Assembly (NCBI GenBank): GCA_947623455.1
Contig: OX392529.1
Location: forward strand, 63,425,686-63,489,685
Direction of reading: 5' to 3'
DNA length: 64,000 nucleotides
Origin: Mimachlamys varia
Taxonomy: Eukaryota > Mollusca > Bivalvia > Pectinida > Pectinidae
A program made the translations under genes and the position numbers. Each line of letters starts with the position of its first letter. The stretch's first letter is position 1. Below the pieces are notes generated by a model that saw nothing but the letters and a program-made list of their open reading frames with translations, was not told where the DNA came from and did no database searches. This document shows positions 20,801 to 56,800 of this stretch, piece after piece.

Positions 20801-23800
20801 CTACGATAGAGAGATGTACTACCCTCACAGTTACTGTATACTACGATAGAGAGATGTACTCTCCTCACAGTTACTGTATACTACGATAGGGAGATATACT
20901 CTCCTCACAATTACTGTATACTACGATAGAGAGATGTACTCTCCTCACAGTTACTGTATACTACGATAGAGAGATGTACTCCCCTCACAGTTACTGTATA
21001 CTACGATAGAGAGATGTACTCCCCTCACAGTTACTGTATACTACGATAGGGAGATATACTCTCCTCACAGTTACTGTATACTACGATAGAGAGATGTACT
21101 ACCCTCACAGTTACTGTACAGGTATACTACGATAGAGAGATGTACTCCCCTCACAGTTACTGTATACTACGATAGGGAGATGTACTCCCCTCACAATTAT
21201 TGTATACTACGATAGAGAGATGTACTACCCTCACAGTTACTGTATACTACGATAGAGAGATGTACTCCCCTCACAATTATTGTATACTACGATAGAGAGA
21301 TGTACTCCCCTCACAGTTACTGTATACTACGATAGAGAGATGTACTCCCCTCACAGTTACTGTATACTACGATAGAGAGATGTACTCCCCTCACAGTTAC
21401 TGTATACTACGATAGGGAGATATACTCTCCTCACAGTTACTGTATACTACGATAGAGAGATGTACTCTCCACACAGTTACTGTATACTACGATAGAGAGA
21501 TGTACTCCCCTCACAGTTACTGTATACTACGATAGGGAGATATACTCTCCTCACAGTTACTGTATACTACGATAGAGAGATGTACTACCATCACAATTAC
21601 TGTACAGGTATACTACGATAGAGAGATGTACTCCCCTCACAGTTACTGTATACTACGATAGAGAGATGTACTCCCCTCACAGTTACTGTATACTACGATA
21701 GGGAGATATACTCTCCTCACAGTTACTGTATACTACGATAGAGAGATGTACTCCCCTCACAATTATTGTATACTACGATAGAGAGATGTACTCCCCTCAC
21801 AGTTACTGTATACTACGATAGAGAGATGTACTCCCCTCACAGTTACTGTATACTACGATAGAGAGATGTACTCTCCTCACAGTTACTGTATACTACGATA
21901 GAGAGATGTACTACCCACACAGTTACTGTATACTACGATAGAGAGATGTACTCTCCACACAGTTACTGTATACTACGAGAGAGAGATGTACTCTCCACAT
22001 TTACTGTATACTACGATAGAGAGATGTACTACCCACACAGTTACTGTATACTACGATAGAGAGATGTACTACCCACACAGTTACTGTACAGGTATACTAC
22101 GATAGAGAGATGTACTCCCCTCACAGTTACTGTATACTACGATAGAGAGATGTACTCCCCTCACAGTTACTGTATACTACGATAGAGAGATGTACTCTCC
22201 TCACAGTTACTGTATACTACGATAGGGAGATATACTCTCCTCACAATTACTGTATACTACGATAGAGAGATGTACTCTCCTCACAGTTACTGTATACTAC
22301 GATAGAGAGATGTACTCCCCTCACAGTTACTGTATACTACGATAGAGAGATGTACTCCCCTCACAGTTACTGTATACTACGATAGGGAGATATACTCTCC
22401 TCACAGTTACTGTATACTACGATAGAGAGATGTACTACCCTCACAGTTACTGTACAGGTATACTACGATAGAGAGATGTACTCCCCTCACAGTTACTGTA
22501 TACTACGATAGGGAGATGTACTCCCCTCACAATTATTGTATACTACGATAGAGAGATGTACTACCCTCACAGTTACTGTATACTACGATAGAGAGATGTA
22601 CTCCCCTCACAATTATTGTATACTACGATAGAGAGATGTACTCCCCTCACAGTTACTGTATACTACGATAGAGAGATGTACTCCCCTCACAGTTACTGTA
22701 TACTACGATAGAGAGATGTACTCCCCTCACAGTTACTGTATACTACGATAGGGAGATATACTCTCCTCACAGTTACTGTATACTACGATAGAGAGATGTA
22801 CTCTCCACACAGTTACTGTATACTACGATAGAGAGATGTACTCCCCTCACAGTTACTGTATACTACGATAGGGAGATATACTCTCCTCACAGTTACTGTA
22901 TACTACGATAGAGAGATGTACTACCATCACAATTACTGTACAGGTATACTACGATAGAGAGATGTACTCCCCTCACAGTTACTGTATACTACGATAGAGA
23001 GATGTACTCCCCTCACAGTTACTGTATACTACGATAGGGAGATATACTCTCCTCACAGTTACTGTATACTACGATAGAGAGATGTACTCCCCTCACAATT
23101 ATTGTATACTACGATAGAGAGATGTACTCCCCTCACAGTTACTGTATACTACGATAGAGAGATGTACTCCCCTCACAGTTACTGTATACTACGATAGAGA
23201 GATGTACTCTCCTCACAGTTACTGTATACTACGATAGAGAGATGTACTACCCACACAGTTACTGTATACTACGATAGAGAGATGTACTCTCCACACAGTT
23301 ACTGTATACTACGATAGAGAGATGTACTCTCCACATTTACTGTATACTACGATAGAGAGATGTACTACCCACACAGTTACTGTATACTACGATAGAGAGA
23401 TGTACTACCCACACAGTTACTGTACAGGTATACTACGATAGAGAGATGTACTCCCCTCACAGTTACTGTATACTACGATAGAGAGATGTACTCCCCTCAC
23501 AGTTACTGTATACTACGATAGAGAGATGTACTACCCACACAGTTACTGTACAGGTATACTACGATAGAGAGATGTACTCCCCTCACAGTTACTGTATACT
23601 ACGATAGAGAGATGTACTCTCCTCACAGTTACTGTATACTACGATAAAGAGATGTACTCTCCACAGTTACTGTATACTACGATAGAGAGATGTACTCTCC
23701 ACAGTTACTGTATACTACGATACAGAGATGTACTCCCCTCACAATTATTGTATACTACGATAGAGAGATGTACTCTCCTCACAGTTACTGTATACTACGA

Positions 23801-32800: not shown

Positions 32801-35800
32801 CCCGGTAAACGTGTCGTAAGCTCGACGTTATACATTGTGATTAGAACATGCAATATCATCCAATGATATTTTCTTTGTAGAGATGCATTTAAAAATGTGA
32901 TGTTAGTTTAATGTTAGAGATACATTGGCCATAAAAGCTATTTATGACCATTGAGGGGGCATTTTTATCGAAAATTGATCTTAACACCCAAAATGTGTAA
33001 AATTACTTTTAACATCCTATTTTAGGTCCAAAACTAGCTGTAACAAATTCTCAGGTCCCTGTGCATTGTACATGTAGTTAAAATGATATTTCAAAACGAG
33101 ATAATATTAGTTTTGATTTGAAGTAACCAATGAACAGGTTTTGTATGCTGTCCGAGTATACACTGAGGACTTTCTGGTCGTGTGTATGTGTACAAACTGA
33201 CGTTACCAGGTCACCGATAGGTTCCCAGGATGGGGCGTTGCCCCGTTCGACCGACCCATGCACTTCCTGTTGTGGCGGACCATTCCTGTGGCGGTCTGGA
33301 TGTATTGTACATTACAAAGTTACTTTGATATCACATTCATTAGATACACTCGAAAAAAACCCGACAATTCTGATTTTAATATTTGGAAAAAATAACACAA
33401 TATACTTAGCACTTTACGGCCATGTACGTGTTCTAGCCAGCTATAGTTTGTAACAATTGCACACAAACCTATGAGTTCTGTTGCAGAAATCGAAAGAAGG
33501 AGAAAAATACGTAACGATATATGATTCGGTTTTCGTTGAATGGGGTTCGATCTCAATATCGATAGAAAAATATACAGTATTTGACATTATTGTCCACCAT
33601 AATATATCTTATACAATATTATATTTAGATTGTTTGACATTATTGTCCACCATAATACATCTTATACAATATTATATTTATATTGTTTGACATTATTGTC
33701 CACCATAATATATCTTATACAATATTATATTTATATTGTTTGACATTATTGTCCACCATAATATATCTTATACAATATTATATTTATATTGTTTGACATT
33801 ATTGTCCACCATAATACATCTTATACAATATTATATTTATATTGTTTGACATTATTGTCCACCATAATATATCAATATCTATCAGATCATGTAGTGTACT
33901 CAGCAATGATGACAGTTTAACGTGTAATTTATACAAAACATAGTGGTGTGTAGTTATTTACATATCTCATGGAAATTTCAGTGTTTTACGTCACTCTACA
34001 TGTTTTATACAAAAAAGAATGTGATTGGCAATCTGCACTTTTCGCATAAAGTGCAAGGAGCTAAACGTATTTAAAATATGTAGGCTTGAATTTGAATATG
34101 AACAAATAATCATACACTTTTGCTATTTAAATTTAAAATTCATAATTTATGCACTTTATAATGTACATCATTGTATATTACACCTTGACTTTATCCACGT
34201 TTAAACATATTTCGTGAGTGTATATCGTTGACAATGTATGAAAGCCTCAATAGCAAAGTTTATCTCCCACCCTGTGAAACTTGACACCAACAACAAACAA
34301 TACAAATTGAATCGGGCTTATACGATTACCCCTTATCAGGCCCCAGCAGTATGGGAAATGTGATCTGAGTTATCGACACGAGGCGAATCCAGAACGAGGC
34401 AAAGCGACTCCACCCCTGTTTATTTATATACGCTATTTATATTGACTGCAGATAGACGGGGCTTGCCGAGAGCTACGAGTGGGGCAATTCAAATAGGTGG
34501 ACGATTAAAGCTTAAAATCTATTAGGTTTGAAACCACTAGTAGTGTATGTAGCGAGAGTAAAGACGACTGTTGGTGAAGCCGGTAGTAGCGCCGTCAGTA
34601 CATTGTACGTACGTACACACGTGTACGTGTGCTCTGTGACTCTCTAGGGAGAAAAAAAACGATTGTTTACTTTGTATTAAACAAATATTTGTGTTCAAGT
34701 CACTTAAAAGTATTGGGAAATCCTGAACGGAGTTCAATAGGTTTTGATAAAATTCTGAATATTATGTCATTTATTATGTATTCATGTATATTATGAAATG
34801 TTCGCCTTTTCCACACGTATCCTATATATGACTAAACTGTTTGCCTCGATCTTGCACTAGGACAAGCCAACACTGTGTGTGTTAGATAGAAGATCAGACG
34901 TGACTTGAAAATTAATGACCCATGCGAATAGCTTGAAATAGCAGTGTGGAATGTGTTTTACAGTGGTCCTCGGGCTCCAATGTACTACTGGCATACTGCA
35001 TGTCATACACGTCACCTTATAGTACTGTACCTGTACTACATATACTGTACCTGTACTACACATACTGTACCTGTACTACACATACTGTACCTGTACTACA
35101 TATACTGTTTAGCATGGCACACGTTCGTCTAGGGATTGTTGTTAAATCGTTCATTTGTGTATTGGTGTTGGAGTTCCGCGAATCATTCTTATCACATGGT
35201 TACTTATTGCTATTTAACTGTTAGACAGTGGACTTGTTTTAAAGATATTCTAAGCATTCCTCTCAGCTAAGAAATATTGACCGTATAGATACAAACGAAT
35301 GTTGGAAATCAATCGTGTAGAGAAATCTAACTTAAACTGATCCCACCAAACTAGTTCATTAGGATTTGTTCAAAGTCCACGTGATAAAGTTTGAATTTCA
35401 GGTGAACGTTTTTGAACACGTCCTATTTATGTGAAGAGTTACACATAATGTAGTCCGAAGGGTTCTGATACGCTGAATGTTGGTGTTGTTGGATGATGGT
35501 CAGTCAGTAACACCGATAGTTTGCGGATCAGAACCCTTCGGACTAGAAGAGTGTGACTTTTTCGTATAAAAATGATATTGGGAGAAATTTATCTTGATTG
35601 AAGGCCCAATATACGTAACTTTCGGCAAAACTTGAAGCGAAAATCAAGCCTAATAACTTATTATATTTATAGATTTAGCTAAGATTAACTGATATCAGCA
35701 ATATCCAAGATAAATACCTTCGCGGTTACCGGTACAGCAGCAGTTGAAACACGCTATTTGTAAACACGCGTCCATTTCGAACCGTCTTCTACCTTCGGTT

Positions 35801-38800
35801 TGTTGTTGAAGTGGGCCCCACTTGAATTATTTTCAATTCTTTGAATATTTTTGTCAAGAGTTTCTTGTTAGTTACCGCTCAGGTTTACTTCGATTTAGGC
35901 TTATTTTTGCATGGTTATCAACTGGATTTTTTTCAGAATTTTTCAGAATCACGAAAATTTCCCTAAAATATATTGGGCCTTTAAGCCCAACGAGGTCATT
36001 GTAAAAATATTAGAGAATACCAAAACGTCAACAAAACCATAAGCAGAGCTCAAAAGCGATTAAACTATAAGAACAAAATATTAAAGAAGGAAAGATTTAT
36101 ACGGATATTCTTGAAAAGTGCAAGAGAATAAGAACAGGCGTTACGGAAGAGTAAGCATCTTTTGCTTCATCGACGACACGCGCCATGTAATTGTATGTCA
36201 TATCCAAGTCAATGCAACGTTCTCAAAGAGAGAACATACACATACTTCTCAATCACAACATGTAGGTATGCTAATGAGCATATTCAATCCCAGTTGCTTG
36301 AGTTTCTGTCAGTAAATGATAAATGCATATGTGTGAAAAGAGCCTCCCATTACATTCTGTAATGGGCCGCGGCTCCATATATGTAAACATTTTGTATATA
36401 CTGACAGAAACTCAAGCAACTGTGATTCAATAACATCCACCTTTATATCATACAAGGATATAGAAGATCTCGCGATGAGACCAAGATGACGAATATACAT
36501 AGAAATAAAACCTGTTCATGAGATGAATATAGTCTTCATCAACCCGCATCTCTCGATGTCTGTCGCAAGTATTCATCAGCAGCTGACCTCGATCACGAAA
36601 ATCCTAGAATGACGTATCAACTGTAAACACCATAGGTTTGAGAAGCAGAGATGAAACTATCAAGAAAGGGGAATTTCACGATCGGAAAATTGAAATGGTG
36701 TCGATTATAAGATGCCCATTCTGGTCATAAGTTTTCATAGTTGACCATGTAACCAACTGGCTCTGAAAAACATGCATGTAGTTTTATACCCAACGTTAAT
36801 AGTATGTACATGTACGTAATAATGTCAGGCTCCTTCATAGGAAAGAAGGTTCCCGTACGGCTATTTATCAGGCGCAGAACAATCCTATTTCAACTTTTAA
36901 TTCCCCTCGTGGACATAGTAGGTATATAGTAGGTGACACCGAATGGCGGAAATTTGGCGTTATTTCAACATAACGTGGGTGGTCGGGTGGTGCATTGGAT
37001 TTCGCACTTGCCTTTTACGAAGGCGGCCGGGGTTCGACTCCCCGATCGGACGTGAACAGGTATGGGGTCAACTGCAAGATCACGTTGGTTTCCACCGGGT
37101 ACTCCGGTTTCCTCCCAAATTAAGATTCTCCGCGCGCAAACACCCGGGCAAACAAGAATGGTTTATATCAGTTGAATAACTTGTTTCACAATTGTTTTGA
37201 AAGGAATGAAGTTTAACCCCAGAAATAATATATAAGAATTGGCAATACAAGTTTGTGGATATTTATGTACATGTAGTATACGGTATCAGACGGGTTATAT
37301 TTTATAGCGAGGCGTATAAACGGCTTCGTCCGTAGTCACCTATCGTCCGTCCAGTGACAACTCGTAGTCACGTATCGTCCGTCCAGTGACAGACCGTAGT
37401 CACATATCGTCCGTCACTGAACAGACCGTAGTCACAGTGACAGACCGAAGTCACAGTGACAGACCGTAGTCACGTATCGTCCGTGCAATGACAGACCGTA
37501 GTCATATATCGTCCGTTCAGTGACGGACCGTAGTCACATATCGTCCGTCACTGGACAGACCGTAGTCACAGTGACAGACCGTAGTCACAGTGACAGACCG
37601 TAGTCACAGTGACAGACCGTAGTCACAGTGACAGACCGTAGTCACGTATCGTCCGTCACTGGACAGACCGTAGTCACATACCGTCCGTCACTGGACAGAC
37701 CGTAGTCACATATCGCCCGTCCAGTGACAGACCGTAGTCACATATCGTCCGTCCAGTGACAGACCGTAGTCACGTATCGTCCGTGCAATGACAGACCGTA
37801 GTCATATATCGTCCGTTCAGTGACGGACCGTAGTCACATATCGTCCGTCACTGGACAGACCGTAGTCACAGTGACAGACCGTAGTCACAGTGACAGACCG
37901 TAGTCACGTATCGTCCGTCACTGGACAGACCGTAGTCACATACCGTCCGTCACTGGACAGACCGTAGTCACATATCGCCCGTCCAGTGACAGACCGTAGT
38001 CACATATCGTCCGTCCAGTGACAGACCGTAGTCACTTATCGTCCGTTCAGTGACGGACCGCAGTCACAGTGACAGACCGTAGTCACAGTGACAGACCGTA
38101 GTCACATATCGTCCGTCCAGTGACAGACCGTAGTCACTTATCGCCCGTTCAGTGACGGACCGTAGTCACAGTGACAGACCTTAGTCATATATCGTCCTTG
38201 AAGTAACAGATAATGATTAAGGAGCAGGGAGTTGGTCGGCGGAATAACGCCAATGTCAGGTGGGACCCCGCCATATTGTGTCGTCTGTGTGCGTTAAGAA
38301 ATTTAAAGTTGAAATATGGGCCTGGCTAGATTGATAAGTTGGCCTATGATAGTCATATGTAGCTATAATTAAATGGAATGCATACCATTATCTCTTTGGC
38401 CTGGGGAATGTTAGAGAGAGGATGAAATGGGACCACGTGTGATAGATTACCTCACACATCAACGTATTTTCTGCACCAGTTTACCAACCTTAGGTGTGGA
38501 AGGCAGCTTTTAATTTCACCGTTATAATGGATTTCTCTACTGACTCCTCCCCGTAACAAATAGGTTAGTCTGTGTAGCCTTCAGCACTATGGCGTAAGAA
38601 TAATATACTACAGATGGATTGACCTCCTTTTGTTTTGAACAATGTTATTGTCATATTTGTAGTAAAGGCCGCTCTGGCTAAGAGGTCTAGTCACACCTCT
38701 GGGTCGCGGGTTCCAGGCTTACGTGGTGCGGTAGTCACCAGGTACTGACCGTTGATCGGTGGTTTTTCTCCGGGTACTCCGGTTTTCCTGCCCACGAAAA

Positions 38801-41800
38801 CCTGACACGTCCTTAAATGGCCATAGTTTTTAATACGGCGTAAAGCACAGACAACCCAACTTATATTAAAAAAAAACAATGAAACATAATGGATTCCTTT
38901 AGAAATCAAGTTATGTATATGTGTTATGTAGTTTATTAATGCTTTACAAGAAACGCACTAGAAAGATTGGGAGTGCGCCACATTGTTGTAGACTATAGTG
39001 GTTGGTACATTGTACGGGCGTGTTTCGCCCCACCCATGCACTACAATCGCTGATAAGATGGTATCCATTATATTAATATAGAAGTTGGCAAGAAGAATGT
39101 CAATGGAATGCATTAAAGTAATCGATATCTTGGATCCCTATTCTCTCTTTTGTGCATGTTTACTAAGACTGATCGATTTAACAAAATGGCTGACCGTTGG
39201 GAATCGATTTACCAAATTAGCTGACCACTGGGAATCGATTTAACAAAATGGCTGACCACTGGGAATCGATTTATCAAAATGGCTGACCATTTGGAATCTT
39301 GTACATTTGTATTTTGAGGGTTGCTGTTTATTATTGTTGTTACACACGAAATAATACACAAATGTTACTTATGTACACACATAGTTTTGCATGTCCGCTC
39401 TGTAAAGTTCCCTTTGGTCCCTTGTTGTGCATGTCTCGTATTTAAAGTTGCCTTGGTCCCTGGTTGCGCATGTCCCATATGTAAAGTTCCTTTTGGTCCC
39501 TTCTTGTGTTGACACGTCCGTCAGGCAGCCATCTTGGATTTTTAAAAATGTTGTCGCTATTTCTCAAAAAAGTGTTTCACAAATATTTCTCAAATTGTCC
39601 CTTGAATATAATTAAATTGGGCATGTATCAATTTGAGAATGATTAAAACATAATATAGTAAAAGGCGATCATTTTTCTTTTACTTCGATATTTCATGAAT
39701 ATTACTTCCCAGGAAATAAATAACATGTATTTCTCTTATTACAATGATCGGTTATACTTTGTTCATGTGAAGCACTGAAATACTTGTTGTCTTCACATCA
39801 GTATGAACTTATGATACAAAGTTTACTGATAACATATCGATCTGACTTTGGGCTAATGAAGCTAGTACGTATACGATGATGGGCGCCAAGAATCCTATAG
39901 TAACTCTTGTGTATCAACGCGAGTTAAATTGTTTTCATACAAGTTCTTGTCTTTACCACTTTCTGCAAAGTTAATATCCTCATATTTACGTTGTATGTTT
40001 TATATATATGACACATTACCTCAAGTTTTCTCATACGACGTTATTCTTCAGAGATAGGATGTTTAACTTTCTAGTATGACTTGGTTCGTCAGAGATAGGA
40101 TGTTTAACTTTCTAGTATGACTTGGTTCGTCAGAGAAAGGATGTTTAACTTTCTAGTATGACTTGGTTCGTCAGAGAAAGGATGTTTAACTATCTAGTAT
40201 GACTTGGTTCGTCAGAGATAGGATGTTTATATGTCTAGTATGACTTGGTTCGTCAGAGATAGGATGTTTATATGTCTAGTATGACTTGGTTCGTCAGAGA
40301 TAGGATGTTTATATGTCTAGTATAACTTAGTTCGTCAGAGATAGGATGTTTAACTTTCTAGTATGACTTGGTTCGTCAGAGATGGGATGTTAACTTTCTA
40401 GTATGACTTGGTTCGTCAGAGATAGGATGTTTATAAGTCTTGTATGACTTGGTTCGTCAGAGATAGGATGTTTATATGTCTAGTATGACTTGGTTCGTCA
40501 GAGATAGGATGTTAACTTTCTAGTATGACTTGGTTCGTCAGAGATAGGATGTTAATATGTCTAGTATGACTTGGTTCGTCAGAGATAGGATGTTAACTTT
40601 CTAGTATGACTTGGTTCGTCAGAGATAGGATGTTTATATGTCTAGTATGACTTGGTTCGTCAGAGATAGGATGTTAACTTTCTAGTATGACTTGGTTCGT
40701 CAGAGATAGGATGTTTATATGTTTAGTATGACTTGGTTCGTCAGAGATAGGATGTTTAACTTTCTAGTATGACTTGGTTCGTCAGAGATAGGATGTTTAT
40801 ATGTCTAGTATGACTTGGTTCGTCAGAGATAGGATGTTTAACTTTCTAGTATGACTTGGTTCGTCAGAGATAGGATGTTTAACTTTCTAGTATGACTTGG
40901 TTCGTCAGAGATAGGATGTTTATATGTCTAGTATGACTTGGTTCGTCAGAGATAGGATGTTTATATGTCTAGTATGACTTGGTTCGTCAGAGATAGGATG
41001 TTTAACTTTCTAGTATGACTTGGTTCGTCAGAGATAGGATGATAGGATGTTTAACTTTCTAGTATGACTTGGTTCGTCAGAGATAGGATGTTTATATGTC
41101 TAGTATGACTTGGTTCGTCAGAGATAGGATGTTTATATGTCTAGTATGACTTGGTTCGTCAGAGATAGGATGTTTAACTTTCTAGTATGACTTGGTTCGT
41201 CAGAGATAGGATGTTTATAAGTCTTGTATGACTTGGTTCGTCAGAGATAGGATGTTTATATGTCTAGTATGACTTGGTTCGTCAGAGATAGGATGTTTAT
41301 ATGTCTAGTATGACTTGGTTCGTCAGAGATAGGATGTTAACTTTCTAGTATGACTTGGTTCGTCAGAGATAGGATGATAGGATGTTTAACTTTCTAGTAT
41401 GACTTGGTTCGTCAGAGATAGGATGTTTATATGTCTAGTATGACTTGGTTCGTCAGAGATAGGATGTTTAACTTTCTAGTATGACTTGGTTCGTCAGAGA
41501 TAGGATGTTTATAAGTCTTGTATGACTTGGTTCGTCAGAGATAGGATGTTTATATGTCTAGTATGACTTGGTTCGTCAGAGATAGGATGTTTATAAGTCT
41601 TGTATGACTTGGTTGTCAGAGAAAGGATGTTTATATGTCTAGTATGACTTGGTTCGTTAGAGATAGGATGTTTATAAGTCTAGTATGACTTGGTTGTCAG
41701 AGAAAGGATGTTTATATGTCTCGTATGACTTGGTTCGTCAGAGATAGGATGTTTAACTTTTTAGTATGACTTGATCGTGAAGTTTGTTGTCTTGATTTCT

Positions 41801-44800
41801 GATTCGACTTTTTCTGTACATAATTTCAGGTAAACAATAACGGCCTCTTGACATTTGAGAAGGAGAAAAAGTCGTACAAACCTGAAGAATTCCCTCTGGC
41901 CGACAACACGTCTGTGATAGCTGTATTCTGGGCTGATGTGGACACACAGAGAGAGGGCGGAAATGTGACGTACCGACAAGTAACAGACCCGGCTCTTCTT
42001 ACCAGGGCATCAGAAGAAGTTAGGAAATACTTCTTTTTGAGAAGAGAATTCACGTGGATGTTAATCGCTACTTGGTTCGAGGTTGGATACTATGGGGCAT
42101 CTAGCTCCGGTAATTTACGGGTAAGTGATATCAGGCAAGGGGAATTACGGGTAAGTGGTATCAGGCAATGGGGGACTACGGGTAAGTGATATCAGGCGAT
42201 GGGGGACTAGGGGTAAGTGATATCAGGCAAGGGGAATTACAGGTAAGTGATATCAGGCAAGGGGACTACGGGTAAGTGATATCAGGCAAGGGGAATTACG
42301 GGTAAGTGATATCAGGCAAGGGGGACTACGGGTATGTGATTGTCACATCGCTGGTGGTGACACCCCCTGTCACAGAAGTTGTTACAGTGCTGAGTGTGAC
42401 GCTGCAAGTGGTATTATTGTACACATTTTCCTTTCTTTTGCAGAAAAACACATTCCAGTTGGTGCTAGCGACGAATGGGGAGGAGTCCTACGCGTTCTTT
42501 TTATACAACAAACTGCAGTGGACGACAGGCTCAAACAGCCGTGGCAACTCGTCAACGGGACTTGGGGGATACCCGGCCCAGGTAACACTGACACTAAATA
42601 GCTACATGTATATATGGCAACTCGTCCACGGGACTTGGGGGATACCCGGCCCAGGTAGCACTGACACTAAATAGCTATATATGGCAACTCGTCCACGAGA
42701 CTTGGTGGACACTCGGCCCAGGTAACACTGACACTAAATAGCTATATATGGCAACTCGTCCACGAGACTTGGTGGACACCCGGTCCAGGTAACACTGACA
42801 CTAAATAGCTATATATGGCAACTCGTCCACGGGACTTGGGGGATACCCGGCCCAGGTAACACTGACACTAAATAGCTATATATGGCAACTCGTCCACGAG
42901 ACTTGGTGGACACTCGGCCCAGGTAACACTCTCACTAAATAGCTATATATGGCAACTCGTCCACGGGACTTGGTGGACACCCGGCCCAGGTAACACTGAC
43001 ACTAAATAGCTATATATGGCAACTCGTCCACGGGACTTGGGGGATACCCGGCCCAGGTAACACTGACACTAAATAGCTATATATGGCAACTCGTCCACGA
43101 GACTTGGTGGACACCCGGCCCAGGCAACACTGTCACTAAATAGCTATATATGGCAACTCAATCGACAGAAGCACAAATTTCCTGATCAGTTATGATTTAA
43201 TCCTTTCGTTTTACTTTGGCGTGAAATTTCTGTAACTCTTTTCAATGTTCATTCAGTAGTACTAACGTATGACTATGGTGGTTAGTTGTAGGTTGGTGTT
43301 ATCATTTTTGTGTAGGTGGGTGTTATCATTTTTGTGTTAGTTGGTGTTATAATTTTTGTGTGTGTGTGGGTGTTATAATTTGTGTGGAGGTGGGTGTTAT
43401 AATTTTTGTGTTAGTTGGTGTTATCATTTTTGTGAAAGTGGTATTATAATTTGTGTGTATGTGGGTGTTATCATTTTTGTGTATGTTAATGTTATCATTT
43501 TTGTGTATGTTGATGTTATCAATTTTGTGAAGGTTGGTGTTATCAATTTTGTGAAGGTTGGTGTTATCATTTTTGTGAAGGTTGGTGTTATCATTTTTGT
43601 GAAGGTGGTATTATAATTTGTGTGTAGGTGGGTGTTATCATTTTTGTGTAGCTGGGTGTTATCATTTTTGTGAAGGTTGGTGTTATCATTTTTGTGAAGG
43701 TTGGTGTTATCATTTTTGTGAAGGTTGGTGTTATCATTTTTGTGAAGGTGGTATTATAATTTGTGTGTAGGTGGGTGTTATCGTTTTTGTGAAGGTTGGT
43801 TTTATCATTTTTGTGTAGCTGGGTGTTATCATTTTTGTGAAGGTTGGTGTTATCATTTTTGTGAAGGTGGTATTATAATTTGTGAAGGTTGGTGTTATCA
43901 TTTTTGTGAAGCTTGGTATTTATCATTTTGTGTAGCTAGGTGTTATCATTTTTGTGAAGGTTGGTGTTATCATTTTTGTGTAGCTGGGTGTTATCATTTT
44001 TGTGAAGGTTGGTGTTATCATTTTTGTGAAGGTTGGTGTTATCATTTTTGTGAAGGTTGGTGTTATCATTTTTGTGAAGGTGGATGTTATCATTTTTTGA
44101 AGGTTGGTGTTATCATTTTTGTGAAGGTTGGTTTTATCATTTTTGTGTAGCTGGGTGTTATCATTTTTGTGAAGGTTGGTTTTATCATTTTTGTGTAGCT
44201 GGGTGTTATCATTTTTGTGTAAATGGATGTTATCATTTTTGTGTAGCTGGGTGTTATCATTTTTGTGTAAGTGGATGTTATCATTTTTGTGTAGCTGGGT
44301 GTTATGATTTTTGTGAAGGTTGGTGTTATTATTTTTGTGTAGGTGGGTTTTAACTCTGAGGACGGAGTAAGTTACTTCAGTGTGGACGGAGCTCAGACAG
44401 ACGCCGTCATCAACCTGACCAGAACCAGTAACGTCGGGGAAGCGGGGAAGTGGGTGTTTGGTGTGTCCGGCACCGCCATCAGGGATGTCCAGTGTAACCA
44501 CGATGGTCAGTATACCCTTGCTAGTTCTGATAAACGTTAGTGCATGTTCAACATATGTTCATTATGATTTGTTTAATTTTGAAAAGAGGAAAAAAAGCCA
44601 CAGGATTTTCGAACAAAGTTTATTTTCATGACACTTCCAACTGGTTGAAAACTTTGTTGTTTGCCGTTTGAAAACATGACAATCATGGTTATATAGTGCC
44701 AATTTTTTTCTTCTTTTTGTTTCTTCAGTGCAAATTAAAATTGTGCCAAATAACGGCTATATGTTTGGAGGCGAAGAATTCAGAGTCAGCGGCCCGTGCT

Positions 44801-47800
44801 TTCAGCCGGACTACAACGTAACGGCACGCATTGTGCAAACGAACTCGACATTTCAGTGTGCAGTCATTAACTTTGTGTCAGCGAAGTGTGTGCTGCCACC
44901 TATATTCAAAACAGGGGAGATGACTCTGGAATTAAATCCGTACGGGATTAGCTGGAATTACTCTACAATTCTTCAAATAAGTAAGTGGAAGAAGACATTT
45001 ATCGGTATGATGTCAACTTTAACTATATATTTGTCTTCTAACCGTAAATACTGCTGTTAAGGCCCAATATACGTAACTTTCGGCAAATCTTGAAGCGAAA
45101 ATCAAGCTTAATAAGTTTTTATATTTATTTTTCTGTCATGACTTTCTTGTTAGTTACCGCTTGGGTTTACTTCGTTTAAGGCTTATTTTTGCATGGTTAT
45201 CAACTGGAAATTTTTTCAGATTTTTTTCAGAATCACGAAAAAATTCCTGAAGTTCCGTATATTGGGCCTTTAATACTACTCTAATTTCCCGTGAATTCTA
45301 CTGTAACTTCGCATGAATACTACTGTAATCCCGTGAATACTGCTGTGATTTCCCAAGAACACGGCTGTAATTTTGTTATTTCCCGTGAATAATGCTGTGA
45401 TTTCCCGTGAATACTGATTTGATTTCCCTTGAATAATGATTTGATTTCCCGTGAATACTAATTGGATTTCCCGTGAATACTGATTTGATTTCCCGTGAAT
45501 ACTGATTTGATTTCCCGTGAATACTAATTTGATTTCCCGTGAATACTAATTGGATTTCCCGTGAATACTAATTTGATTTCGCGTGAATACTGATTTGATT
45601 TCCCGTGAATACTGTTGTAATGTTGGCTTGAAAACTCTACCTCAAGCACCCCCGCTACCCTGATATCTCATGATATGTTCGACTCAGTCTATGTAACATG
45701 TTCCGACTTTAATAACATATCGTTTTATTGTAGATAACGTAGCGTCGATGGCGCCAAAAGTAGTGAGAAAACAAATCGATCAGTGGATCGTCGGCAATCG
45801 GGTGGAGGTGGAATGGAACTCCACTGGTCTGCCGTCCAGCCAGCATTGGACCGTAGAATTGATGGGATACCAGGTAGAATAAATAGAAATAAACACTTAA
45901 TCAAACCCAAAACCTAAAAGCAAATATCAAATGAATGTGGTGTTGGATAAAACAATATAATGTCGGATGATTTTACAATCGTTTAGTCAATGGTATGTAA
46001 ACATAAGCAGGTTGTTTTGATAAGTTACATCCGTCATTTGTGATATCCGTTGTTTTATTTTCCAGTATAAGAATGGCGTCCCGAACTTTGTTGCTGTGCA
46101 ACTGTTGGATTTCAATGAAACGTCCAAGTCCTTTATATTACCGGCATCGCTGAGGGCATATCAGTCCGCCGCCGTCCGTGTGCGGGAGAGTCAGCCTGTT
46201 TCATGGAGGTAGGTGTACGACACTGGGGTAGGGTAAACAGGGAGGTAGGTGTACGACACTGGGGGGTAGGGTAAACAGGGTGGTAGGTGTATGACACTGG
46301 GGGTAGGGTAAACAGGGAGGTAGGTGTATGACACTGGGGATAGGGTAAACAGGGAGGTAGGTGTACGACACTGGGGGTAGGGTAAACAGGGAGGTAGGTG
46401 TACCACACTGGGGGTAGGGTAAACAGGGAGGTAGGTGTACCACACTGGGGGTAGGGTAAACAGGGAGGTAGGTGTATGACACTGGGGATAGGGTTAATAG
46501 GGAAACAGGGAGGTAGGTGTACGACACTGGGGTAGGGTAAACAGGGAGGTAGGTGTACGACAATGGGGGTAGGGTAAACAGGGAGGTAGGTGTACGACAC
46601 TGGGGGTAGGGTAAACAGGGAGGTAGGTTTACGACAATGGGGGTAGGGTAAACAGGGAGGTAGGTGAACGACAATGGGGGTAGGGTAAACAGGGAGGTAG
46701 GTGTACGACACTGGGGGTAGGGTAAACAGGGAGGTAGGTGTACGACACTGGGGGTAGGGTAAACAGGGAGGTAGGTGTACGACACTGGGGGTAGGGTAAA
46801 CAGGGAGGTAGGTGTACGACACTGGGGGTAGGGTAAACAGGGAGGTAGGTGTACGACACTGGGGGTAGGGTAAACAGGGAGGTAGGTGTACGACACTGGG
46901 GTAGGGTAAATAGACTGTCGATAGTGTCATGGCTACCTTTGTATCAGTAAAACAAGAGGTTATCCTCAGTGGTATTGTCCTAATACAATCTTAACTGATG
47001 TCAACGACAACAGTGAAAGAAAGCATTTTAATAATCCATACTTATGTCATCAATTCGAAAAAAAGTAGTAGTATCGACAACAGTATAATCTATTTTGAAG
47101 CTTTGTGGTCCGATACGGTATTGTATCTATTGTCACGTGGAGAGACACAGCCTTGCATAGCAATATCAGGAAGTTACAACCAGTTCAACGGGTCCAGACC
47201 TTTCGGCCTGGTGGTAGCGTCCTGGCTCCCTCTGGTTGGCGCCCCGCTTGTCTCACTAGTTTCATTTATTCTCTTTCTCGTTAAACGTTGTCTATTGCCC
47301 ATGTCTAGGTGTTGTATGTACTATTTGTCACGATGATTATTTCTTAAATATGGTTACAGCCCCTGATGCCCCTGCGTCGTGACGGATCTGGTTTGAGCTG
47401 TGTGACTGCGTTCTTCTATATTCCGTCAATACATAACACTATACCGCTATCTATACCGGGTTTTATTGTTTCAGTGTACCGGAAGCTGAATATGTGTGTT
47501 TGATACATTAATGTATCTGGACTATGCATAACTTTGATTGTAGCTGTGTGGTCCGATACATTACTAGCATACTGTATCTTGTCTTGTTTTAGCGAACCGG
47601 TAGCTGTGTGGTCCGATGTGTTTCCAGTCAGATTGAATGCCAACTGGTCCTCTTTAATGTGTTCTTCTTGGAACACTACGGACAACCTCCTGCCCAGTGT
47701 TAGTAGCAAGAATCTAGCTTGTCCGTGTATTGTCAGGCAGGCATCCCGTGACACAGGCAGGTTCGCTTTAGACCCTCTGTGCAGTTTAGACAATTCTAAC

Positions 47801-50800
47801 GGACCATCAAATTGTGTTTACAAACCTGGTGCTGTTCAGTGCTTTTTACGTATTCAGCAAAGGTAAGTTCACAAAGGGAGTTATAATAGTTTAAACATGA
47901 TATTGTTCTGTAGGATAAATATATCCATGACAAGGTCAACCGAGTAAAATAAGAAATATCTGTATTAACTCTCTGGGTTCCATCGTCTTTGAAGTTCCCA
48001 CTATCTTGACAATATTTGACTGAGAACCTCAACCCTTTCGTCTTGCGTCCCGTGTATATTGCCTGTTTCTATGCACATTTTGTTCCATTTTCGTTGATAG
48101 ATAGTTTCTGTTTGCCGAGTCGTTATGAAAACGTTAATGACACAGGAATACCATCGTTTGAAGGGAGATAACTCCCAAATGAAATGAAATCAGTCGGATA
48201 TCATGCTGAATGTACATAATGTATATGAAGCCCTGGCCAAGCACCATTTTAGACACAGTTTTACGCTATCACAAAATACCTCGACCAATCTGTCTCTTTT
48301 TTACCCGATCTTTTAACTTACTCTGACTATTTCATATCTGTCGGTAGCTCCATGAAGTTCGTAAACTCACATAGGATGATTCGCCATCTGACTATTTCAT
48401 ATCTGTCGGTAGCTCCATGAAGTTCGTAAACTCACATAGGATGATTCGCCATCCCAGTTCGACTTTAACCAGATACTTTATAATCCCTCATATCAGTTCG
48501 ACTTTAACCAGATCCTTTATAATCCTCCATCTCAGTTCGACTTTAACCAGATACTTTATAATCCCCCATCTCAGTTCGACTTTAACCAGATACTTTATAA
48601 TCCCCCATATCAGTTCGACTTTAACCAGATCCTTTATAATCCCCCATCTCAGTTCGACTTTAACCAGATCCTTTATAATCCCCCATCTCAGTTCGACTTT
48701 AACCAGATACTTTATAATCCTCCATCTCAGTTCGGCTTTAACCAGATACTTTATAATCCTCCATCTCAGTTCGACTTTAACCAGATACTTTATAATCCTC
48801 CATCTCAGTTCGACTTTAACCAGATCCTTTATAATCCCCCATCTCAGTTCGACTTTAACCAGATACTTTATAATCCCCCATCTCAGTTCGACTTTAACCA
48901 GATACTTTATAATCCCCCATCTCAGTTCGACTTTAACCGGATCCTTTATAACCCCCCGTCTCAGTTCGGCTTTAACCAGATACTTTATAATCCTCCATCT
49001 CAGTTCGACTTTAACCGGATACTTTATAATCCTCCATCTCAGTTCGACTTTAACCAGATACTTTATAATCCTCCATCTCAGTTCGACTTTAACCAGATAC
49101 TTTATAATCCTCCATCTCAGTTCGACTTTAACCAGATACTTTATAATCCTCCATCTCAGTTCGGCTTTAACCAGATACTTTATAATCCTCCATCTCAGTT
49201 CGACTTTAACCGGATCCTTTATAATCCTCCATCTCAGTTCGACTTTAACCAGATACTTTATAATCCTCCATCTCAGTTCGACTTTAACCAGATACTTTAT
49301 AATCCCCCATCTCAGTTCGACTTTAACCAGATACTTTATAATCCTCCATCTCAGTTCGACTTTAACCAGATCCTTTATAATCCTCCATCTCAGTTCGACT
49401 TTAATCAGGTCCTTTATTCTGTTTTCAGTGGATCGAGTACCGGTGCTTCGTGTTGCTATGATCAAAGCGGTGATTTGATTGACTTCCGTGACAGTAATGG
49501 AGGTGGCAGTTCTTTACGTTATACCATTCGATCTCAGGAAAACGACGCAGTGCCTTTCTTTTCTTTCTTTGAGGAGGATCTTCTTGCTTCCTTACATTGT
49601 TGTCAGTATTCTGTGGACATGTGCCAATTGTTTAAGGAGAAACGTCCACCCGTCACGTGTGATCAGTATGAACCTCCCACAGCAGGTTTGTATACTTCAA
49701 TCATACACAACAACACTTGCAGATTGCGATATCATTTTGAAACAAACTAGAAAAGCAATTGTTTTCCTTAATGTAGGCCTTATATGTAACATGTTTATAT
49801 GTTCTTGTCCATTATGGCTTAGCCTCAAGTCCCTTGTCTTTGAACGGTTGTTTGTTTTTGTCAGCCCAAGCTAAGTCCCTTGTCTTTGAACGGTTGTTTG
49901 TTTTTGTCAGCCCAAGCTAAGTCCCTTGTCTTTGAACGGTTGTTTGTTTTTGTCAGCCCAAGCTAAGTCCCTTGTCTTTGAACGGTTGTTTGTTTTTGTC
50001 AGCCCAAGCTAAGTCCCTTGTCTTTGAACGGTTGTTTGTTGTTGTCAGCCCAAGCTAAGTCCCTTGTCTTTGAACGGTTGTTTGTTTTTGTCAGCCCAAG
50101 CTAAGTCCCTTGTCTTTGAACGGTTGTTTGTTTTTGTCAGCCCAAGCTAAGTCCCTTGTGTTTGAACGGTTGTTTGTTTTTGTCAGCCCAAGCTTAGTCC
50201 CTTGTCTTTGAACGGTTGTTTGTTTTTGTCAGCCCAAGCTTAGTCCCTTGTCTTTGAACGGTTGTTTGTTTTTGTCAGCCCAAGCTTAGTCCCTTGTCTT
50301 TGAACGGTTGTTTGTTTTTGTCAGCCCAAGCTAAGTCCCTTGTCTTTGAACGGTTGTTTGTTTTTGTCAGCCCAAGCTAAGTCCCTTGTCTTTGAACGGT
50401 TGTTTGTTTTTGTCAGCCCAAGCTGTAGGAGATCCACACCTGACGACACTGGACGGGAAAGACTACACCTTCAATGGTTTAGGGGATTTCATTTTAGTAG
50501 AAGACGACACTTCCAGCGTGGTAGTCCAAGTCCGTACAGCGCAGGCGCAGGATACGGAAGGTAGGCATAGTTACATCTCTCCCTTCTTAAGCTTAGTAAA
50601 CTCTGACTGGGTATACACGATTCACGATGTACAGTAGAAAGGTTTGGCGAAATTATTTCTGTTTCAAGTACTGCGCCGGTCCACGCTTCAGAACGACAAC
50701 TTTTAAATGACAGCCGTTCATTGGTCCCATTTGAGATCTATGACGTCTAATTTAACAATAGATATATGGTGTAAACGTCTTATTCTATTGATGCTCGTTC

Positions 50801-53800
50801 GACGTTAATGCCACAAATGGCGGCTTCCTGTTGCTACGTCCGACCGTGTCACTACCAAATCCGTGTGGCATTGTGTCTACATAACGACTATTGTAATCTA
50901 ATAAGTATGTAACCAAAGAAGAAAAATATTGAAGTTTTTTTGCGTATTTTTTGAACTTACCACTATATCGAATAAGATTTACGGAATTAGCAACCACGGC
51001 TATCGTGATTACCAAAGTAAAAGCCTGACTCGGCTATCGTAATTACCAAAGTAAAAGCCTGACTCGGCTATCGTGATTACCAAAGTAAAAGCCTGCCCCG
51101 AATGTGTTTTTCTTCGTATAGTATTTAAACATTGTAAATAATGTCAATAAAAGGTTTGTACTTTATTTTGACTGCGTATTCGATTGTATGCCCGTTGTTG
51201 GCGACAAACATATTCACTATGGATAGCTAACGCTCACCATAGAGTATGTTCGTTGCCAACTGAGGACATAATACCGTGTACGCAGTCAAATTAAGGTACA
51301 CTCATTTAATGTATCTCATAAAGACAGGATGCTTGTAAAATAACCTTCATGACTTACATAGCGCAAAATGAACCATTTCCGGCGATATAACTTACTTACT
51401 TAAACAACAAGAAGGTTTGCTTACCACGTCGATCGTATATACCCTTCTGAACTTCAAATCAAAGACACAACAGACTCTTCTACATCAGCTGCTTACCTCG
51501 AACTCTACTTAAACTACGACCAACATGGACAGCTTACTACTAAGCTTTACGATAAACGTGATGATTTTCTGATCGTGAACTTTCCATTTCTTGATAGTAA
51601 CATCCCTGCTTCTCCAACCTATAGTGCTTGCATGTCGCAGTTGATTCGATATTCTAGGACTTGCTCTAAATATCGGGATTTTCGTGATCGATGTCGACTG
51701 CTGACAAACAAACTAACAACACAAGAATTCGAGAGATACAGGTTGATCAGAACTATGGACAAGTTTTATGGTCGCCATCTTTGTCTCACTGAGAAATATT
51801 CTGTATCTTTAAGTGATATGAAGATGGACGTTTTGAGTATGCTCATTAGTGTGTTTACTTGTTGTGATTGACAATGCTACTCGGTTCTCATTTTGAGAAT
51901 GTTTACATGGATGTGACAAAGATTTACATAGCGGGTGTCGTCGATGAAGCAGAAGACGCTTACTCTTCCGGAACACCTGGTCTTATTCTCTTGTACTTTT
52001 ACAATAGTCTCCATGTAAATCTTTTCTTTGTTCATGTTTTGCCCCTGGTTTAATCGATTTTGAGTTTGGATTATGATTTTGTTAACGCTTCGGTATTCTC
52101 TTATTTATTTACGCTTAATTTGATTAAAGTGTAATATTTGCGTTCCTCTTCCAGGTCATTACCAGAACGCAAGCATTTTTACTGGCGTTGCCATGACGTC
52201 AAAGGGAGTGTCTGACGTAATTGAAGTACATCGTGACACTAATACTGTGTCACGGATCCTGGTCAACGGCGTGTTTGTCAATAACGAGTTATCTACCTCA
52301 GTCACACAGTTTAAAGGTGAGTACCAAATACAGATAACATTTTCTATCAAGTTACTTCGTGCTACATTGTGATGGAAAACAGCCTTCACGCACTTACCTG
52401 ACGTCATGATGTCGGCGTTTGAAGTCATCATTGACTTTCAGCACCACAATAAAATTGACATTATTTGATTGATGTGATATATAGCAAATGATAGTCTTGG
52501 AGGATTGACATGTCTTATTGGTGTGGTAATTTCGAGCACGGAAGAAACATAATCTTGGTGAAGATTGTAAATCATCTTAAAGGTGTTCTCCTTACCTTGC
52601 AGGTCTGTCTGTTCAGAAGATTCGGACGGACGCCACGACAGATAATATCTTGGTTGTGTTAGAGTCCACGGGCCTGTCCGTGTCTATGGATGTCACGTCC
52701 GACCTCGTCAATGTCCTTGTCATGGTGGGGGACGACGGGATGAAAGGTAACCACCATACTGAATGATGTATCGCCCTGTCCGGGTAGGATAGGCCAACCT
52801 GAAGCACTTTATAGTACATCGATAATTCATCCAACTGTTATTATAACGCAGTAAAATAAAGTTACCGACCAAGAAAAAATATAAAAGGAAGATACAACAG
52901 AAAACCATTCCGATGCTTTCAGCTCAATGAGATTTAATGTTGTTTTAAAGAATTCTGTGGAGCTGCTTAATGAGATGACAGTGCTATACCACTTGGCTGA
53001 AATTTTGGAAGAGCTTATCTTGATTGGTACCAAAAATCTTGCCAAATCCTTTAATTTCACTTTCAGACATATCGACGACGTGTTGTCTATAAACAACGAG
53101 AAATGTGTTGACCATGTCGATCGTAAATAATATTCTGGACTTGAATAAAGGACACAACCGACTCTTCTACATCAGCTACTTACCTCGATCTCTAATTAAA
53201 CTATGATCAACATGGACAACTTACTACTAAGCTATACGATAAACGTGACGATTTCAATTTTCCGATCGTTAACTTTCCATTTCTTGATAGTAACATCCCT
53301 GCTTCTCGAACCTATGGTGTTTATGTGTCACAGTTAATTCTTTATTCTATGGGTTACTCTAAAGGTCGAGATTTTCGTGATCGATGTCGACTACTGACAA
53401 ACAAACTAACAACACAATGATTCGAGAGAAGCAGGTTGATCAGAACTCATTGAGAAATATTTCGTATTTTTGCGTGATTTGAAAATGAACGTTTTTTATT
53501 ATGCTTATTAGTGTGTTTACTTGTTGTGATTGACAACGATGAATCAGTTCTCATTTTGAGGACTTGATGTTTACATGGATGTGACAAAACTTTACATGGC
53601 GGGTGTCGTCGATGATTTTGTTCATATTTAGCCCCTGGTTTAATCGATTTTGAGTTCGGATTATGGTTTTGTTGTTGCTTCGGTATTCTCTGTTTTTTGT
53701 TCATATGAATTGCCTGTGTCATGCTTAGATGAAAAGCTACCACTTCGTCCCAATAACCGAAAGGCATTGGGAACTGATATTTTTCGCCTGTGGCATGCTT

Positions 53801-56800
53801 GGATGAAGAGTTACAAAATGTTTAAATGAATGACATAAACCCACTTTCAAGGTCACAAGGGAAAATATTTTAAAAATTTAAGTAGCTTCTTGTTAATAAT
53901 CGAAAGACCTGGTAAACTGATATTTGGCCTGTATCATGCTTGGATGAAGAGCTACCAAGATGTTGTTATCATGCTTGGATGAAGAGCTACCAAGTTGTTT
54001 TTAAATGAATGACATTTACCGACGTTCAAGCGCATAGAGGTCATATGTGTTAAAAATCTTCCCGCAACCTCTTCTCAGTAATCGAAAGGCTCGGGGACTG
54101 ATATTTTGCTGGTAACATGCTGGGATGAATGGATACTAAGTTTGTTCATTGACCTTACAAGGTCCCATGGTTAAGATATGTTATTATATTTATATTTTTC
54201 GGCATACTGTATCTATTACTAACTTTAAAAGGTGCAGCATATTTGTGTGTTGCGTCGTATTTAGATAACTTCACAATAACCATTAAAAAATCATACAGGT
54301 GATTTTTCTTTATAGTCGGATAACCGTTGAGGCGAATGGGCCTTTTGTCTAATTTCAACATTTGAAACATGGACGAAAGGAAGAACAGCAATGTGAATCT
54401 AATCTAACAGTACATAGCATACAGGTCAAAGTTAGTACCTTGCTGCTGTCAATCCTATTATTATATACATGGTATATATTATTTAGCCATCAATAGAATA
54501 TATCCGGAATGGGTCGTTTTGTGTATTGTTATAATCCGTATCTTGTTTCTATGTTTTGTCGTTAACTTCCTGTTTCCGGAAAATAAAATGAAAAGTTGAA
54601 GGAGGAGTTGTATTCGATTTCATCTATAAAGACTCCTCTCACATATTAATACAAGAATAACTTCACCTTGGTACACTAGTATAATGACAAAAGTAGTACA
54701 AAATAACCACAATTGAGGTCATATCTCTTCACAAGCTTTTAATACCTTAACAGAGTTTGATTTTTTGAAGATCGTTATAATTCTTTCATCCTGACAGGCA
54801 TTTTTTGAAAGGTTCAGTTCCCCATGCCACACTACAGTACTACGCTGTCAGTCTTTCAGTACTTTGATTATCTTTCAGGTCACCTCCATGGTCTTCTTGG
54901 CAACTATAATGGGAACTCGAATGATGACTTTGTTTCGCGGACAGGAGAACAGCTCAGTCCTAACATAGATATGGAACAGATTCACTTCGAATTTGGCATG
55001 ACATGTGAGTCTCCTTAATTAGATATAAAGGAATTTCGTTTAAGCCGTGTTTAGATTTTCTTCGATGCCCTTACTACATTTGTAAACTGCAAATTATACC
55101 TGGTCGAACGTGCATTTTTAAAACAGTAATAGATATACATAAAAATAAATATTTCTCTCAACTTTTCAGGGTTTGTACCCGAAAACAGGACTCTATTTTC
55201 AAACGGTATGACTGAAGCATTAGACTTTGTACCAACGTTCAGTGACTCAAATACTTTGCCGGCGCGGAACGGTACTGATGAAATGTGCGGAGACAATGTT
55301 CAATGTCGATTTGATTTCCAAGTCACTGGTAACGAGGCTATAGCCAGGAGCACCGCCAACTTTATCAACAAATTTAATGTGCTGAAGAAAGATTTGGTGA
55401 AAGGTAAGTCACCTACTAATTTATCTTATAACGTAACCCAAACCAAAAATGAAGAAACTGTCTTGTCGCGCCTAATAGATGCTACAGTACGGACCACTTG
55501 TAAACAATCTGTTACTCACCGTGTTCACCATCCTTCGATTTCCTAGTTATTATTTACATGTCACCCTAAATATCTCTTACCAGTGGTTCGCTGTCCCTTC
55601 TTGGATACACCAGAGAATGGAATAAGAAATATAACTGGTTACTTCCCAGGAGCAAATGCTAGCTTCGAGTGTTTATCAGGCTTCGTCAGTATGGGTGGAG
55701 ACCACAGGCAGATTTGTTTGGAGGACGGCACATGGTCAGGCAGCACCATAGTATGTGTAAAACCAGGTACGTAAATAGGTTGATAAAAGGTACAAAACGT
55801 AGGTTTACGCAAACACGTATATTTGTTACATAACTATTGTATCTAATCGAACATGCCATGAAAACAAATACAATAAGTAAAATCCAAACAAGTGATTTCC
55901 TTCAAATGGCTTTCTGGAAACTTTTGTATGTTTTGACTTTCTGGAAACTTTTGTATGTTTTGACTTTCTGGAAACACTGGCATGTTTTGACTTTCTGGAA
56001 ACTTTTGTATGTTTTGACTTTCTGGAAACTTTTGTATGTTTTGACTTTCTGGAAACACTAGCATGTTTTGACTTTCTGGAAACTTTTGTATGTTTTGGGG
56101 GTTTTTATTGGCAATAAGGGTATATTTTTTTTCTATGTTTTGTGTAAGCTTTAGTAACGGTCGTTATTTATATTTACAGTACACCAGGAAGATCAGGGCT
56201 ATTCACAAACAATCATCATCTACACCACGAGTGGTACCGGCATCAGTGTTTTCATCGTCATTGTTATATGCGTCATATGTCAGTATCGTCGACGCCAGCC
56301 GAAGACGGCCGATGTAGAGGAGTGAGTATAAGTTAAAGTTTCTCTCTAGTTGGAAACTGACAGTAATACTAACCATAGTTTAAAAGTGAATACTTTGCCT
56401 GGTTGTCAGCCCCTGCCAGTTCTCCTTGTTTATTTGTCGTCCTGTTCTGATTTCAGGGATGTACCTCACGTAGAGTTACCTGTCCTATTTTCCCCATCCA
56501 ACATTCCAAAACCAATTTTTGAGAATGAGGAATTCCTGGAAATGTAAGTATATAAGTAATATTTGATAAGTTAAGTTGCATATTAACTCACGAAGATTGA
56601 ATTAAGGTACAATTTCGAAAGTATCCCGAAACTTGATAAATACTGTTTGTCTTACTTGTTTAAGGCTGATACCAAAGCGTAGCTATCATTACATGCACTT
56701 ACAATTTACTTGCATGTGTCAACGCTATGGAAATATAGACATATTCAGGTGTTGATGGTGCTTGTTTTAATCCCAGCTCTACAGTCAGAGTAGTACTTTA

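Follow-up and report, generated by a model that had tools for sequence, protein, structure and literature searches.

Tandem arrays that include splice junctions in a SUSD2/mesh-like gene of the scallop Mimachlamys varia

Tandem repeats that include a splice site have been described in several human genes. In CBS a splice site lies inside the 31-bp VNTR c.1444_1467+7 and inside c.844_845ins68 (PMC2630376, PMC1395315), and for IFI6 a paper from 1995 describes, by its title, a minisatellite with many copies of a donor. Dual-specific splice sites in tandem repeats were reported for UBC and VCX3A, together with 792 human introns inside tandem repeats, a situation related to arrays at junctions but not the same (PMC10809524). 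Intron gain by tandem genomic duplication has also been reported (PMC4974935). The statement of an earlier note on this scallop DNA, that no described family would predict arrays at splice sites, was too strong, since the CBS and IFI6 minisatellites contain a splice site. Among the open-access titles and abstract openings listed there was no genome-wide count of arrays at splice junctions, nor a report of such arrays in a scallop.

The window, the whole stretch of DNA that was analysed, comprises 64,000 nucleotides of the pectinid scallop Mimachlamys varia (OX392529.1, 63,425,686-63,489,685, forward strand). A SUSD2/mesh-like gene was located at 8629..56909 on the + strand by means of an open-frame exon model, Pfam and scallop orthologues. 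The gene covers 48 kb with 18 exons and 34 splice sites and encodes 1063 amino acids in a single open frame, with NIDO, AMOP, VWD, C8-3 and Sushi domains (Pfam). By eye, a putative N-terminal signal peptide and a putative membrane segment near the C terminus were also seen. Orthologues were found at 76-84% in three scallops. Intron 1 of the exon model alone takes up 33 kb (8857-41829, + strand). All splice sites of the gene were inferred from coding continuity and the orthologues.

Tandem Repeats Finder (TRF) detected arrays overlapping 5 of the 34 splice sites, all on the + strand and all verified by alignment. The exon 2 donor (exon end 42120) lies in a 30-bp array of 7.5 copies at 42115..42340 whose unit includes 6 nt of exon, the exon 3 donor (exon end 42581) in a 67-bp array of 9 copies at 42542..43159 with 40 nt, and the exon 7 donor (exon end 46208) in a 37-bp array of 19 copies at 46205..46910 with 4 nt. 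The exon 4 acceptor (exon start 44343) belongs to a 24-bp array of 44 copies at 43287..44352 with 10 nt of exon, and the exon 10 acceptor (exon start 50417) to a 46-bp array of 13 copies at 49827..50424 with 8 nt. The five arrays are thus minisatellites with a splice junction (units of 24-67 bp, 7.5-44 copies), and with the inferred splice sites each unit contains 4-40 nt of exon plus intron sequence. A 30-mer from each site was also aligned with its own intron (for intron 1 the nearest 5 kb only) and compared with shuffles. Close copies were found for all five straddled sites (z 6.8 to 19.9), in agreement with the earlier note, and 28 other sites of the gene gave no intron copies above z 2.3.

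Two further cases had been suggested. At the exon 8 acceptor (exon start 47593) the proposed 60-bp duplication was partly recovered at 47461..47619 (+ strand): a degenerate copy of the site around 47461 (z 6.3) and repeats of 22 nt spaced 60 bp apart were detected, but no TRF array. The exon 9 acceptor was rejected as a junction array (z 1.2), because the 39-bp array of 25 copies at 48449..49417 (+ strand) stops 11 bp before exon 9 (49429) and leaves the acceptor outside. Counter-examples, straddling no junction, were the 22-bp arrays within intron 5 (45272..45614, + strand) and the 27-bp array within intron 15 (55910..56097, + strand), both from TRF and the exon model. None of the 20 arrays in intron 1 touched either of its sites.

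As a second sample, 81 introns in 14 SNF-transporter regions of the same genome were analysed. Here 26 arrays were found and 6 of them overlapped a splice site, spread over 5 of the 14 regions. We concluded that the window gene is not unique, because this sample also holds junction arrays. The regions were hand-picked among 108 matches listed, preferring several close exon matches (compact genes); they were chosen before the repeats were inspected and are not a random draw. Of 111 introns, 90 could be resolved and 21 could not; 9 of the 90 were then removed by the margin or the splice-score filter. The 90 introns contained 32 arrays, and the 6 arrays in the removed introns straddle nothing by at least 3 nt. 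In the NIDO family, 19 introns contained 5 arrays, none of them straddling, which is uninformative, as only 0.15 was expected. That set used 27 of 30 loci (the window gene accounts for L013 and L020, and L030 overlaps L016), of which 19 gave gene models and 19 introns passed; many loci are tandem paralogues sharing one intron, so the counts are not independent.

The 11 units, five from the window gene and six from other genes, were compared with each other and none of the 55 pairs exceeded z 4. The spread of a single repeat family was thereby rejected, and the view that a process recurs, rather than one repeat spreading, was supported by these unrelated units and by the recurrence in other genes. 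It had also been proposed that exon edges are where the arrays begin. The 11 arrays overlapped the exon by 4-42 nt, or 11-90% of the unit, and this overlap fitted a uniform distribution over the unit (KS P = 0.98, n = 11 arrays, 5 from the window and 6 from other genes). We concluded that the arrays do not start at exon edges, because the extent of entry into the exon is spread uniformly across the unit. Introns 2 and 3 of the window gene occupy positions common to array-free NIDO paralogues, and 5 of the 6 straddled SNF sites belong to intron positions common to 9-12 sampled introns, mostly array-free. The affected introns are therefore not new where they are comparable, which introns 7 and 9 of the window gene and the C8 intron of the SNF sample were not; no comparable intron was absent from its relatives.

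To obtain the number of junction arrays expected by chance we used a within-intron model in which the founding unit was allowed to straddle the junction. The control proposed earlier, random placement within introns, forbids straddling, so that any case would look significant; it is unfair because the founding unit must be free to straddle, and a null model that permits this gives a fair baseline for counting repeats at splice sites. For calibration 1650 arrays were planted and 1629 detected, of which 259 were called spanning against 232.8 from the formula (factor 1.11). The cut-offs, an exon overlap of 3 nt, a margin of 10 and a TRF score of 50, had not been set beforehand. The window gene was selected because the pattern was seen there, and the SNF sample was chosen without regard to it.

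Over the two samples combined, 11 of 58 arrays straddled a junction, against 6.41 expected after calibration (1.7-fold, P = 0.029), and the chance model accounts for more than half of the junction arrays observed. In the window gene 5 of 32 arrays compare with 2.35 expected before calibration (P = 0.056) and 2.62 after it (P = 0.084), so that the excess over chance in this gene is suggestive only. The calibrated SNF expectation was 3.79 for the 6 of 26 arrays (P = 0.14), with P = 0.043 for the stronger arrays (higher TRF scores). At a TRF score of at least 100 the pooled result was 11 of 49 against 5.57 (P = 0.009). Random matched points in the SNF introns were duplicated in 46 of 1620 cases, or 39 of 1620 without the units of straddling arrays, compared with 6 of 162 splice sites, a 1.3- to 1.5-fold difference. 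In the window gene the corresponding values were 30 of 340 and 8 of 340 random points against 5 of 34 splice sites; keeping one unit of a straddling array as interior in this control favours chance. In window-gene introns 2, 3, 7 and 9 the chance of straddling was approx. 10-50% per array.

Our preferred reading, with a probability of about 0.6, is that minisatellites were born at random, that some straddled a junction and that splicing keeps the exon-proximal copy in use. The introns of this scallop are rich in locally born minisatellites, and a tandem duplication, probably by slippage or microhomology-mediated copying, can begin at any position. If the duplicated segment straddles a donor or acceptor, the exon would remain unharmed while the spliceosome uses the exon-proximal copy, probably because exon definition favours the outermost site, and the array would therefore be free to grow into the intron. 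Where introns are short, the unit is likely to straddle a junction. The units were unrelated, the breakpoints uniform, the introns older where comparable, other genes affected and the frequency within twofold of chance. In the SNF introns duplication was almost as frequent at random points as at splice sites, the 20 arrays of intron 1 lay off both sites as the model predicts, and the splice dinucleotides of the inner copies were neither decayed nor significantly favoured. Against random birth, the count exceeded expectation in both samples. Moreover, competition among splice sites of identical sequence would be expected to do harm in many cases, which makes even a chance-level rate slightly surprising.

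The same excess is what splice junctions would give if they were hot spots of tandem duplication here, with a higher rate of array founding than the rest of the intron. Co-transcriptional R-loops, or pausing or repair at the junction, might be the cause. The excess grew to 11 of 40 arrays against 5.37 expected at a TRF score of at least 200 (P = 0.0055), and became threefold under a null of uniform array rate per intron base (rate ratio 3.0, P = 0.0026, uncalibrated). We nevertheless consider such hot spots unlikely, as the SNF sample alone gave P = 0.14 with all arrays and a small difference from random points, the uniform exon overlap indicated no anchoring at the junction, and the window gene was picked for showing the pattern. 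A junction-biased start of duplication, as the earlier note had proposed, was thus not established; the data suggest, but do not prove, a two- to threefold bias. Slightly more probable, though still unlikely, is the statement that junctions are real hot spots with straddling arrays approx. 2-3 times as frequent per available start position as arrays elsewhere in introns, so that 11 of the 196 splice sites examined, approx. 6%, are the end copy of a series of near-identical competing sites. An excess of that size throughout the genome would indicate DNA instability linked to junctions.

We also considered whether selection keeps the arrays because they provide spare or regulated splice sites and so allow alternative isoforms. 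Scored with matrices of rough metazoan consensus values, 88 of 164 inner copies reached at least the score of the used site; at least one such copy was present in 10 of 11 arrays, and such copies were the majority in 9 of 11. Splicing at the second copy of the exon 2 donor would lengthen the protein by 10 residues without changing the frame. The inner copies of 4 of the 5 window arrays, however, would introduce a frameshift or stop. Over 9 straddling arrays the splice dinucleotides of the inner copies had a conservation rank of 0.62 against 0.5 expected (P = 0.16, inner consensus), and the mean rank of the splice motif was 0.64 when measured against the used copy; in non-straddling arrays GT ranked 0.51 (n = 27) and AG 0.47 (n = 17). 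Selection on the splice motifs of inner copies was rejected on the basis of the dinucleotide rank, and the earlier suggestion of selection for redundant splice sites was not established. No insertion was present at the junctions in the three scallop orthologues, and preservation as spare sites appears very improbable. The predicted use of the outermost copy agrees with the protein, which the exon-proximal copy keeps intact.

An artefact of a wrong exon model, with the true splice sites elsewhere, is highly improbable, although every site was deduced from coding continuity: the 18 exons give a single open frame, automatic alignment of the Mizuhopecten orthologue recovered 15 of 17 introns, 15 of 15 at identical coordinates, and the junction residues aligned without indels to the three scallop orthologues. 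That the introns arose when a piece of exon bearing AGGT was duplicated in tandem, the arrays being remnants of this event, can practically be dismissed, since the AG|GT found at 8 of 11 straddled junctions is nearly as common elsewhere (99 of 185 other sites, Fisher P = 0.35) and the comparable introns lie at positions shared with paralogues.

Even if born by chance, the arrays are natural experiments on splice-site choice, with up to about 40 donor or acceptor copies beside one exon. As misuse would destroy the protein in most window arrays, the spliceosome must be dependable in choosing the outermost copy, probably at donors as well as at acceptors, a preference expected under exon definition. 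In CBS two events affect one gene; the scallop has one gene with five arrays plus a degenerate case, and 5 of 14 sampled regions contribute another six arrays, with up to 44 units. The IFI6 repeat is reported, by the title of the paper, to supply several donors, and the inner scallop copies are candidate donors or acceptors. In UBC and VCX3A both intron ends lie in one array, whereas each scallop array takes in one intron end; by the array and intron coordinates of the window and SNF samples, no straddling array reached both ends of its own intron. The likeness is that the repeat units carry a splice site, and there expansion was argued to be tolerable because it is spliced out (PMC10809524). 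As in the described intron gain (PMC4974935), tandem duplication copies a splice signal, but there it creates a new intron, whereas the scallop introns are common to paralogues where comparable.

An open frame across 18 exons on the + strand revealed one long gene in the window. Its protein comprises NIDO, AMOP, VWD, C8-3 and Sushi domains. Among named proteins, those most similar to it by alignment are the scallop 'sushi domain-containing protein 2-like' proteins of Mizuhopecten (84%), Pecten (77%) and Ylistrum (76%), a similarity that points to a pectinid scallop as the source, probably other than these three. TRF arrays cover 47% of the intron bases of this gene. Intron 1 alone (8857-41829, 33 kb) occupies approx. 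half of the window and consists to about one half of tandem arrays, among them one of 4.3 kb with a 40-bp unit (20178-24487); no splice site is touched by any intron 1 array. Two further arrays lie downstream of the gene, a 31-bp array of 62 copies (57604-59516) and another with a 46-bp unit (60042-64000, at least 86 copies) that reaches the window end. Similar coding fragments reading ..YRDFRDRC.LLTNKLT.. were found at 1850-2071 (minus strand), ~51430-51990 and ~53100-53700, two of them within introns 10 and 12, and by eye look like copies of a dispersed mobile element.

TRF arrays were found to overlap 5 of the 34 splice sites, namely the donors of exons 2 (42115-42340), 3 (42542-43159) and 7 (46205-46910) and the acceptors of exons 4 (43287-44352) and 10 (49827-50424). 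In addition, a 30-mer centred on each splice site was aligned to the remainder of its own intron (in intron 1, to the nearest 5 kb) and compared with shuffles, giving z values of 6.8 to 19.9 at these five sites. Both approaches thus recovered the five arrays claimed in an earlier note, whose numbering of exons 2-10 agrees with the 18-exon model. That note had also proposed two further cases; the exon 8 acceptor indeed stood out in the 30-mer alignment (z 6.3), the exon 9 acceptor did not (z 1.2). A perfect 65-bp duplication (48322-48453) adjoins the 39-bp array of intron 8 and is perhaps a recent founding event.

Arrays whose unit holds exon and intron sequence across a splice site are not confined to this gene. 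From 108 SNF-transporter matches listed in the same assembly (975 Mb), 14 compact gene regions (200 kb) were hand-picked before repeats were inspected, and gene models were built by spliced alignment of 120 relatives listed by protein search. When checked on the window gene, the aligner missed two of 17 introns and placed the other 15 exactly. Gene models resolved 90 of 111 SNF introns, and 81 of these passed the filters; the 81 contained 26 arrays, of which six, at three donors and three acceptors across five genes, were straddling. In one of them (C8:7904001-7914000, minus strand, reverse-complement positions 2507-3739) ~41 copies of a 30-bp unit come after an SNF exon that ends in ..NNYWNSK; the first 21 nt of the unit are exon sequence. 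The frame continues some way as WNSKGKYHK-type repeats, so that splicing from some of the inner donors could lengthen the protein in frame. The 19 introns of NIDO-family paralogues, examined besides the 98 introns of this one assembly in the main test, held five arrays, none straddling (expected 0.15).

Since a random founding unit may straddle a junction harmlessly, a fair null has to permit straddling. The chance per array was taken as ~2(L-3)/(R+1+2(L-1)), with L the unit length and R the array-free intron bases. For the five window cases a closely similar formula gave 0.36, 0.51, 0.26, 0.10 and 0.39, large values that result from short introns. Before calibration, 5 cases were observed against 2.35 expected in the window gene (32 arrays, P = 0.056), 6 against 3.41 in the SNF sample (26 arrays, P = 0.092) and 11 against 5.76 in both (58 arrays, P = 0.013). 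We then planted 1650 arrays randomly in 66 real array-free introns; 1629 were detected and 259 called straddling, against 232.8 predicted, so that the formula was low by a factor of 1.11. The calibrated expectations were 2.62 (P = 0.084), 3.79 (P = 0.14) and 6.41 (P = 0.029), respectively. With a TRF score of at least 100, 11 of 49 arrays were straddling against 5.57 expected (P = 0.009; SNF alone P = 0.044), and with at least 200, 11 of 40 against 5.37 (P = 0.0055; SNF alone P = 0.043). When arrays were assumed to occur at one constant rate along the intron sequence, the excess was threefold (P = 0.0026, uncalibrated). Splice sites compared with random points in the same introns gave ratios of 1.3 to 1.5 for SNF and 1.7 to 6 for the window gene, the range depending on whether units of straddling arrays were kept or dropped among the points. 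The window gene was chosen for showing the pattern and the cut-offs were not set in advance. We concluded that chance accounts for more than half of the straddling cases. The counts suggest, but do not establish, a mild excess of ~1.7-fold, and it may be two- to threefold.

A duplication anchored at the junction should leave the exon part of the unit short or constant. Across the 11 arrays it was between 4 and 42 nt long, or 11-90% of the unit, and could not be told apart from a uniform distribution over the unit (KS P = 0.98), which argues against the earlier proposal that arrays start at exon edges; that the unit sequences are unrelated held across all 11. AG|GT was not significantly commoner at straddled sites (8/11 vs 99/185, P = 0.35). 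Judged by their positions, the introns predate the arrays wherever a comparison was possible, at window introns 2 and 3 and at five of the six straddled SNF sites. SNF positions 201, 347, 426 and 468 (P0122 numbering) are each common to 9-12 sampled introns, mostly array-free, and window introns 2 and 3 lie at positions common to array-free paralogues. At SNF position 347 two paralogues carry straddling arrays with unrelated units, at the donor in one and at the acceptor in the other.

The splice dinucleotide is intact in 80-100% of inner copies, which is not significantly more conserved than other dinucleotides of the units (P = 0.16). Scored with a rough consensus, 88 of 164 inner copies equal or exceed the used site. 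Unlike in the other ten arrays, none of the 44 inner copies at the exon 4 acceptor reaches the score of the used site, which may reflect decay of inner decoys. If an inner copy were used, exon 2 would gain 10 in-frame residues, but at exons 3, 4, 7 and 10 a frameshift or stop would result; the Mizuhopecten, Pecten and Ylistrum orthologues have no insertion at the straddled junctions. Judged from these coding sequences, splicing has to settle on the outermost copy with high reliability. Exon definition, which pairs splice sites over the shortest possible exon, may explain this choice.

Comparable junctions are described in human CBS (PMC2630376, PMC1395315): a 31-bp VNTR of 16-21 units lies on the exon 13/intron 13 boundary (c.1444_1467+7), and a separate 68-bp duplication covers the intron 7/exon 8 junction, where one copy is strongly preferred and the mRNA is normal. 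In UBC and VCX3A (PMC10809524) both ends of an intron lie within one repeat, whereas the scallop arrays do not hold both intron ends in one repeat. The window arrays add new cases, in unusually large number, to the minisatellites with a splice site that are known from human CBS and IFI6.
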